Source: Verrucomicrobiia bacterium (GTDB lineage Bacteria > Verrucomicrobiota > Verrucomicrobiia > Opitutales > Cerasicoccaceae). Taken from it: a stretch of 64,000 bases of DNA. The notes beneath the pieces are model-generated. The model was not told where the DNA came from, did not search any database, and was given only the letters and a program-made list of their open reading frames with translations. The stretch covers positions 1 to 64,000 of the forward strand of contig JAUIAM010000022.1 of the NCBI GenBank assembly GCA_030425485.1, given 5' to 3'. The position numbers and the translations under genes are program-made. Of this stretch, positions 7,277-42,187 are shown in pieces (position 1 is the first letter of the stretch; every line of letters starts with the position of its first letter).

Positions 7277-7972
7277 ATGAGCTACTTCATTCGACCAGCA
7301 ATCGCTTTGACTGTTGCGGTGTTCTGGGCATGCTTATCCTGCAGCGCTGCGGACGGTAAATCATCTCTCGACACCCAGATCCAGCCGCGTGCCGAAGATG
7401 CCATCTGGAACTATGCGGCTTACTACAGAGAAGACGGCGTTGACGTTCGAGACGGCATCACGGTCGAAGAAGTTGTCGAGACGAAGGAAATCGAGGGCGT
7501 CACCTGCTATCTGGTTAGGCTGACATTTGATTACCGAACGACGGCTGAGCGGCTCATGGGCATGCCGTTGGATGACGATTCTTACAGCTATTTCTGGGAG
7601 TATGAAAACGACAAAGGCAGTTATAATTATAGTTGCGATGATTTTGCTGGCATGTCGGACATCCCCAGTAGCCTGAAGGAGTTTGATCTCACATTGCCTT
7701 ATCCGGTTAAAGTCGGCTGGAAATCTGTGATCGGTGACTCCGTCTGGAAAGTCATCGATGCCGACGCCGAGGTAAGCACGCCAGCGGGTACGTTTAAGTG
7801 CATTGTTTACGAGGAGGTTACCCTGGATGCACTTTCTCCAGGCGACTCTTCGCGCAGCCTTTTCTATCAATCACCGGGCGTCGGCCTGATCCGCTACGAA
7901 TGGTACGAATACTTCAATGACAAATTCGTCCTCAGCAGCTACGAAGAGCTTTACGATTACGAGATCAAGTAA
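7277..7972 (+). CDS. Secreted protein of unknown function
   Basis: 231 residues from the ATG at 7277; an earlier in-frame start at 7256 would only add residues before the signal peptide. The N-terminus is a signal peptide (MSYFIRPAIALTVAVFWACL, then SCSAADGKS). The mature part is acidic, rich in Tyr and Asp, and beta-rich in character (ITVEEVVETKEIEGVTCYLV; GLIRYEWYEYFNDKFVLSSY). Neither cysteine context is a canonical lipobox, so periplasmic or extracellular location is more likely than lipidation. The pattern loosely resembles small DUF-type proteins with a repeated beta module, but I do not recognise a family. It stands alone after a 450-bp structured gap and is convergent with lepB. Confidence 0.75.
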   Translation: MSYFIRPAIALTVAVFWACLSCSAADGKSSLDTQIQPRAEDAIWNYAAYYREDGVDVRDGITVEEVVETKEIEGVTCYLVRLTFDYRTTAERLMGMPLDDDSYSYFWEYENDKGSYNYSCDDFAGMSDIPSSLKEFDLTLPYPVKVGWKSVIGDSVWKVIDADAEVSTPAGTFKCIVYEEVTLDALSPGDSSRSLFYQSPGVGLIRYEWYEYFNDKFVLSSYEELYDYEIK

Positions 7973-41558: not shown

Positions 41559-41915
41559 GTGAACGGAATGAAGCTAATCATGGGCATTTTGTTGATCGTC
41601 GCCGGATGGATGCCCGCGGCATCGGCCAGTATGCCTATGCCCCAAGTGAATTCCGAGGAATGCTGTTGCTGCTATGAGATGGGCATGGATATGGCCGCTC
41701 ACGAGTGCTGCAACTCCCCCACAGATGCACCCACAGACTGTGGCGACTGTACTGACACACCCTGCCCTTGCCTGACTGTTTGCCACCTGTGGCTCAATGT
41801 CCCGCCGGCAGCGGCTCCGGCTTTTATCCGCGAATCAGAATCCGCCTGGCACATGTCAGACGATGATTTTCGCTCACGTGTGAGCCACGATATCTTTCAT
41901 CCACCGCGTTGCTAG
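41559..41915 (+). CDS. Exported Cys/Met/His-rich small protein (CCCC cluster)
   Basis: 118 residues; ATG at 41559 or 41568. Signal peptide MKLIMGILLIVAGWMPAASAS. The mature part has twelve cysteines: a run of four (SEECCCCYEMGMDMAAHECC), then DCGDCTDTPCPCLTVC and a final PPRC. Met and His are interspersed (MPMP, EMGMDM, AAHE, HDIF). This composition suggests extracytoplasmic soft-metal (Cu/Ag/Zn) binding. Small proteins of metal-resistance loci often end in a similar basic Pro-Pro-Arg tail, but I cannot name a family. It lies 50 bp before the metallothionein-like gene on the same strand. Confidence 0.7.
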   Translation: MNGMKLIMGILLIVAGWMPAASASMPMPQVNSEECCCCYEMGMDMAAHECCNSPTDAPTDCGDCTDTPCPCLTVCHLWLNVPPAAAPAFIRESESAWHMSDDDFRSRVSHDIFHPPRC

Positions 41916-41965
41916 TCCAGATCCGTACCCACAACATCTGACTAACAACAACGTATATCAAAGAT

Positions 41966-42130
41966 ATGAAAGCACTTCTTAAATCCTTCGTCATCACATC
42001 CCTCTTTGCTGCCAGCGCGTTCGCAGGCAACGGTGCAGCACCGACTGCCAATTGCTCGTGCTGCAAATGCGAGCAGTGCGCATGCGAGTCATGCAGCTGC
42101 TGCACCTGCAATGGATGTGACTGCCAGTAA
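41966..42130 (+). CDS. Exported metallothionein-like peptide, 54 residues, 12 Cys
   Basis: ATG at 41966-41968, TAA at 42128-42130. Signal peptide MKALLKSFVITSLFAASAFA, then a mature 34-residue peptide, GNGAAPTAN followed by CSCCKCEQCACESCSCC and TCNGCDCQ. Twelve of the last 25 residues are Cys, in CxC, CC and CxxC spacings and no aromatic residues, as in metallothioneins. Unlike known bacterial metallothioneins (SmtA type) it carries a secretion signal. It is followed by a strong terminator (42156-42187), which supports a real transcript. Metal binding is inferred; a Cys-rich precursor of a modified peptide is the main alternative, although no maturase is adjacent. Confidence 0.75.
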   Translation: MKALLKSFVITSLFAASAFAGNGAAPTANCSCCKCEQCACESCSCCTCNGCDCQ

Positions 42131-42155
42131 CCGCTAGCAGTAATCAGCTTAACGA

Positions 42156-42187
42156 CAGCCAACGCCCCGCGTGTTGGCTGTTTTTTT
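42156..42187 (+). terminator. Rho-independent terminator after the Cys-rich peptide gene
   Basis: CAGCCAAC (42156-42163) pairs perfectly with GTTGGCTG (42173-42180) around a 9-nt loop and is followed by seven T (42181-42187). It ends the transcript of the two cysteine-rich genes. Confidence 0.88.

Follow-up and report, generated by a model that had tools for sequence, protein, structure and literature searches.

The window, a 64,000-nucleotide stretch of DNA from a Verrucomicrobiia bacterium, probably carries a two-gene copper operon, which consists of a Sec-exported Cu(I) thionein and an upstream leader that would act as a nascent-chain sensor of the CutF/CruR type. On balance, the data also favor a scattered family of Sec-exported CxCCxCxxCxC Cu(I) metallothioneins that are placed under a CutF-like sensor, with the same module, in cytosolic form, wired to CueR. 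We infer Cu(I) binding, the periplasmic location and regulation by the leader from sequence.

The probable thionein gene and its locus

The thionein gene is located at 41966–42130 on the plus strand and runs from an ATG at 41966 to a stop codon at 42128–42130. The 54-aa product combines a predicted Sec/SPI-type signal peptide, MKALLKSFVITSLFAASAFA (41966–42025), with the mature chain GNGAAPTANCSCCKCEQCACESCSCCTCNGCDCQ. The signal peptide, which was called by rule from sequence features, has 20 residues with a Lys in the n-region, a hydrophobic core and an A-F-A cleavage site, and it lacks a lipobox Cys. The mature chain contains 12 Cys in 34 residues (35%), all of which are in CxC, CC or CxxC spacing; at a background of 1.2% Cys, the probability of at least 12 Cys in 34 residues is ~4e-15. 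The Cys part is composed of two tandem copies of a 13-residue module, CxCCxCxxCxCxx: module 1 (CSCCKCEQCACES, 42053–42091) and module 2 (CSCCTCNGCDCQ, 42092–42127), both on the plus strand. Across the 3.8 Mb genome, the exact six-Cys module is found only twice, and both copies lie inside this gene; with two mismatches allowed, the expected number of matches in the window is 0.16. The two modules share 24 of 39 bases at the DNA level, which indicates that the repeat is not recent. A 12-pair stem followed by T's (42154–42182, plus strand) forms an intrinsic terminator that closes the two-gene unit.

The short gene, the signal peptide, the Cys-dense tail in CxC, CC and CxxC spacing and the strong terminator of the original prediction are thus all borne out; the module repeat and the upstream partner gene had not been part of it. 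At the sequence level there is good support for its central claim, that of an exported metallothionein-like peptide, as homologues share the same signal-plus-Cys architecture. The product matches no Pfam or NCBIfam model, and a PDB search returned no meaningful match and no relative of solved structure. It has the composition of a metallothionein in the general sense, being small, very rich in Cys in CxC/CC/CxxC spacing and devoid of a hydrophobic core. Five exported copies have two full modules; across them every one of the 12 Cys columns is conserved, and eight of the 12 mix TGC and TGT codons. The retention of Cys despite this codon switching argues for selection on the protein and supports the coding status of the gene.

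The unit is flanked on its 5´ side by a ComEB-like deaminase gene on the minus strand and on its 3´ side by a DUF748/AsmA-like gene. A rhomboid-type protein (recognized by eye) is encoded between these two genes in the congeners G001 and G003. Of the nine relatives from the genus and family whose syntenic interval was inspected, none has a Cys-rich ORF, which marks the two-gene unit as a lineage-specific acquisition or replacement. The thionein gene is rare, occurring in three of 388 genomes drawn from the phylum. The GC content of the unit is slightly below the window mean (8th percentile). No direct evidence of a mobile-element origin was found, no plasmid was matched by tblastn (low-complexity filtering may hide such matches), and no Rfam family lies within the operon. 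The genome also encodes a CopA-type ATPase (copA).

Relatives of the thionein and the metal they point to

Protein searches with the peptide against its own genome, 132 relatives and the genome contig collection returned either the peptide itself or weak, mostly stop-containing matches, because the peptide is short and compositionally biased; a codon pattern was needed instead. The homologues that the original prediction had proposed to seek by signal and Cys pattern were recovered by a codon (DNA-pattern) scan for the module. The double-module scan of the genome contig collection yielded 18 loci, and L069 and L070 were added through phylum and order searches. Loose six-Cys matches in the order search were rejected, most of them being TGC/TGT microsatellites or Ala-rich antisense stretches that contain no ORF.

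Sec-exported relatives, with signals assigned by sequence, are found in Verrucomicrobiota, Lentisphaerae, Planctomycetota and Zixiibacteriota, and cytosolic relatives in Lysobacteraceae, Brevibacillus and Berkelbacteria. The small exported forms number eight: the window copy, L059, L052, L069, L070, L049 (Lentisphaerae), L065 (Zixiibacteriota) and L062 (Thermoguttaceae). The seven signal-less forms comprise five of the Lysobacteraceae type (L051, L054, L058, L060 and L061), one from Brevibacillus (L057) and one from Berkelbacteria (L056). The copy in Verrucomicrobia bacterium H12SWF_bin.4 (G142; L041/L059), from another family of the same order, shares 47% identity with the window peptide, and its two modules, signal peptide and terminator are all as in the window. 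L052, L069 and L070, from one genus (family f39) of another class, have the same architecture. Pfam searches with six relatives gave no family in five, and in the sixth only DUF5320, outside the Cys module.

Several further loci were observed. Two are outside the exported/cytosolic tally: L055, a longer Cys-rich protein without a signal, and L053, a module ORF without a clear signal in a Lentisphaerae bin (~7597–7812, minus strand), which is possibly truncated or frameshifted and lies beside a divergent gene that, by eye, resembles mntP. In Riflebacteria, L050, L063 and L066 are larger exported His-/Cys-rich proteins in which the CxCCxCxxCxC double module is embedded once or twice, and L064 is a fragment; L050, L063 and L066 all lack the leader. 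On the Thermoguttaceae contig (L062, 2114–3334), two genes lie 5´ of the thionein pair, one for a membrane protein that looks PepSY-like by eye and one for an EF-hand-like Cys/His repeat protein. The genome of the nearest relative encodes a further small exported Cys/Ser/Lys-rich peptide (MKKYIAISIISIFAAAIANAHCGSCGNGDAKSADCSKSACSS...; L068, G142:C70, 1414–1635, minus strand).

The cytosolic relatives bear on the identity of the metal. All five Lysobacteraceae copies carry a CueR-type operator, TTGACCTT plus a dyad half, 65–76 nt before the start codon, and this is the best or near-best site of each locus. A CueR gene is divergent from the module gene at four of the five copies. At L054, L060 and L061 a MerR-family gene stands in divergent orientation to the module gene, and at L051 a MerR-family gene above the CueR cut-off lies 4.4 kb away; these four regulators score above the NCBIfam CueR cut-off (TIGR02044) and below those of ZntR, MerR and CadR. 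At L058, a cueR-like N-terminus can be read in antisense upstream of the gene (this copy is unscored). CueR responds to Cu(I) and also to Ag and Au. The CueR-type control of the cytosolic relatives indicates that the module is best read as a Cu(I) thionein. Together with the CutF-like leader of the exported forms, it narrows the metal most likely to copper; no CueR-like operator was found upstream of the exported pairs. The small cytosolic Cys-rich peptides of the Lysobacteraceae type would represent an unnamed copper-thionein family, since the three that were scanned match neither a Pfam nor an NCBIfam model.

The putative exported leader and its possible coupling to the thionein

The leader gene is located at 41559–41915 on the plus strand, ends in ...FRSRVSHDIFHPPRC and encodes 118 aa from a GTG at 41559 or 115 aa from an ATG at 41568. 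It has its own signal peptide and 12 Cys in the motifs ECCCC, CC, CGDC and CPC, and matches no Pfam or NCBIfam family. The C-terminus SRVSHDIFHPPRC (...HDIFHPPRC) contains a Pro-Pro pair, three to four residues before the end (codons 41901–41906, plus strand), which is a putative stalling motif. The published filters for CutF-like genes select ORFs of <150 aa with a signal, a PP within the last 15 residues and a next gene <1000 nt away on the same strand (PMC9973294). The 115-aa leader, with ...DIFHPPRC at its end, a 50 nt gap to the thionein gene and a Cys motif in its mature part, passes them.

This arrangement recurs at all eight small exported loci. Each has a same-strand, exported, Cys-rich leader with a C-terminal Pro-Pro, 28–111 nt upstream of the thionein; the leaders start with a signal-like sequence, that of L049 being cut by the contig end. 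The seven other C-termini are ...SRTDRPAVPPPIAEG, ...SRTERPPVPPPIPTV, ...NRNEPPQTPPPIR, ...GRSEAPPTPPPIGPLV, ...SRKDAPPVPPPKQPAHQLTGTCLACA, ...SASAPPGVHCCISSTILLI and ...PRSPPSIRLHLLLNVLLN. In contrast, none of the seven cytosolic module genes is preceded by a leader (Fisher p 1.6e-4; 0.012 by lineage). Across the 368 kb scanned, ten of 1516 ORFs are leader-like, and seven of these ten are leaders of exported thioneins; such counts are supportive and are not a blind test, because the filter was shaped after the first cases had been seen. The leaders are too divergent for confident alignment (26% identity between the window and L059), no Pfam or NCBIfam family covers them, and their homology rests on the architecture of signal, Cys and C-terminal Pro-Pro and not on E-values.

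The genome of the window contains another ORF of this kind (L085, G000:C52:3000-12000, 4–519). It is exported, contains Cys and looks CutF-like, ends in ...SIPPERGPPSCAPVVEQIVRSTVIRR, with PPERGPPSCAPV at the C-terminus, and has no Pfam family. It lies directly 5´ of an OEP/HlyD/HME-RND operon, the kind of neighbor that CutF-like genes are most frequently reported to have.

The leader and CutF of Rhodobacter capsulatus (cutFOG) are both short exported proteins with Cys and a Pro-rich C-terminus, encoded directly 5´ of a gene for an exported copper protein (a predicted one in the window). They differ in that CutF precedes a multicopper oxidase, and they share no detectable sequence family. In R. 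capsulatus, CutF binds copper while it is still a nascent chain; export is delayed by its Pro-rich end, and the stem-loop that covers the ribosome-binding site of cutO opens (PMC9973294). CruR of Bordetella pertussis is likewise an exported upstream ORF, which senses copper as a nascent chain and lowers expression through Rho (PMC9426467). The leader resembles CruR in its export, Cys motif and C-terminal PP, but it has no DUF2946 match and ends in FHPPRC, without RAPP, which places it outside the CruR/DUF2946 family. Thionein synthesis is probably gated by a nascent-chain copper sensor of this CutF/CruR-like kind. Copper would bind the emerging Cys motif of the leader, alter its export or its translation at the C-terminal Pro-Pro, and thereby set the expression of the thionein.

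Folding predicts that the leader codons ATATCTTT (41890–41897) pair with AAAGATAT (41960–41967) over the thionein start site (41890–41967, plus strand). The MFE is -19.1 kcal/mol (z -3.22), and two of 200 dinucleotide shuffles are as stable. A ribosome held at the Pro-Pro codons would cover the first pairing arm. In the model, blocking the leader end opens the start region modestly, from 0.38 to 0.53, and moves the ATG from 0.28 to 0.29; only partial release is predicted, with the start codon re-pairing locally. No start-site shielding is seen in L059 or L049, where the start region looks open. Opening of the pairing by a stalled ribosome is only a hypothetical step. The partial release and the absence of shielding in these two relatives leave the sensor role likely and the stem-loop detail uncertain. 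Coupling may also run through other routes, such as Rho or mRNA stability.

Known metal-binding proteins and alternative readings

Like BmtA/SmtA (PF02069) and MymT, the thionein is small, Cys-dense and without any other domain. Unlike these proteins, which are cytosolic and have other Cys patterns, it combines a Sec signal with a 13-residue module in tandem, and it gives no PF02069 match, which places it outside the BmtA/SmtA family. MymT of Mycobacterium tuberculosis binds Cu(I) and is required for copper resistance (PMC7558416). The original prediction held that known bacterial metallothioneins are cytoplasmic, which is broadly right; however, PmtA has been observed at the surface of P. aeruginosa cells although it has no signal peptide (PMC11237414), and Csp1 of Methylosinus is an exported copper store that is not a metallothionein (PMC5171941). 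The thionein is predicted to be exported and is Cys-rich, as are the exported Cu(I) stores Csp1/Csp2 (PMC5171941) and the gonococcal periplasmic Csp (PMC12510493). The Csps, however, are Tat-exported four-helix bundles that form tetramers, with inward Cys and ~110 or more residues, whereas the Sec-type thionein has a mature chain of 34 residues, too short and Cys-dense to form a helix bundle. Within the open-licence papers searched, no natural secreted or periplasmic bacterial metallothionein was found beyond surface PmtA, and no description of the leader-thionein pairing. The reported downstream neighbors of CutF-like genes include OEP, RND, TonB and PCuAC, among others, and a metallothionein is not mentioned anywhere in the main text of that survey (PMC9973294).

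In the favored reading, the 34-residue chain of two CxCCxCxxCxC modules would, after signal cleavage, fold around a Cu(I)-thiolate cluster and, in the periplasm or outside the cell, buffer or detoxify copper, for example that pumped out by CopA. It is possible, though unlikely, that the upstream gene encodes not a regulator but a second structural partner of the exported metallothionein, such as an exported copper chaperone or scaffold. In favor of this reading, the leader has a signal peptide and is rich in Cys, including a CCCC motif, and CutF was first taken for a chaperone, according to the CruR paper (PMC9426467). Poor conservation beyond the signal, the Cys and the C-terminal Pro-Pro, as expected of a cis-acting leader, the constant 5´ position with a short gap, and the similar ORF at the head of an RND operon in this genome all point instead to the leader as a sensor.

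A peptide that binds Zn, Cd, Hg or several metals and not Cu(I) is quite unlikely: the CxC, CC and CxxC spacing fits many soft metals, but cytosolic relatives with the same module stand behind CueR-type operators, the nearby regulators pass the cut-off of CueR and not those of ZntR, MerR or CadR, and the thionein has no His ligands. BmtA/SmtA proteins bind Zn with His ligands. A thiolate peptide in the oxidising periplasm could form disulfides instead, which is a point against a Cu(I) thionein. We nevertheless consider a disulfide-rich peptide with a redox, antimicrobial or structural role improbable; an even Cys number, export and small size would suit it, yet adjacent CC and CxC pairs at 35% Cys are poor disulfide scaffolds, and the module is common to cytosolic, copper-regulated relatives. 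That the ORF arose by chance and has no product is barely credible, given the Cys columns kept through synonymous changes across lineages and the recurrence of signal peptide, leader and terminator, even though the gene is absent from congeners and from most of the phylum.

Chaperones, multicopper oxidases, RND efflux and Csp proteins are usually credited with the handling of periplasmic copper, and a genetically encoded periplasmic metallothionein would add a class to these. If the reading of the locus as a leader-controlled copper operon is true, a metallothionein would be a new output for exported upstream-ORF sensors, and CutF-like control would extend to phyla that are minor in the published survey. 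The recurring leader-thionein pair would provide a small two-gene system for testing copper sensing by a nascent exported chain, and the module may serve as a usable sequence signature for genes that are missed by ordinary homology searches.
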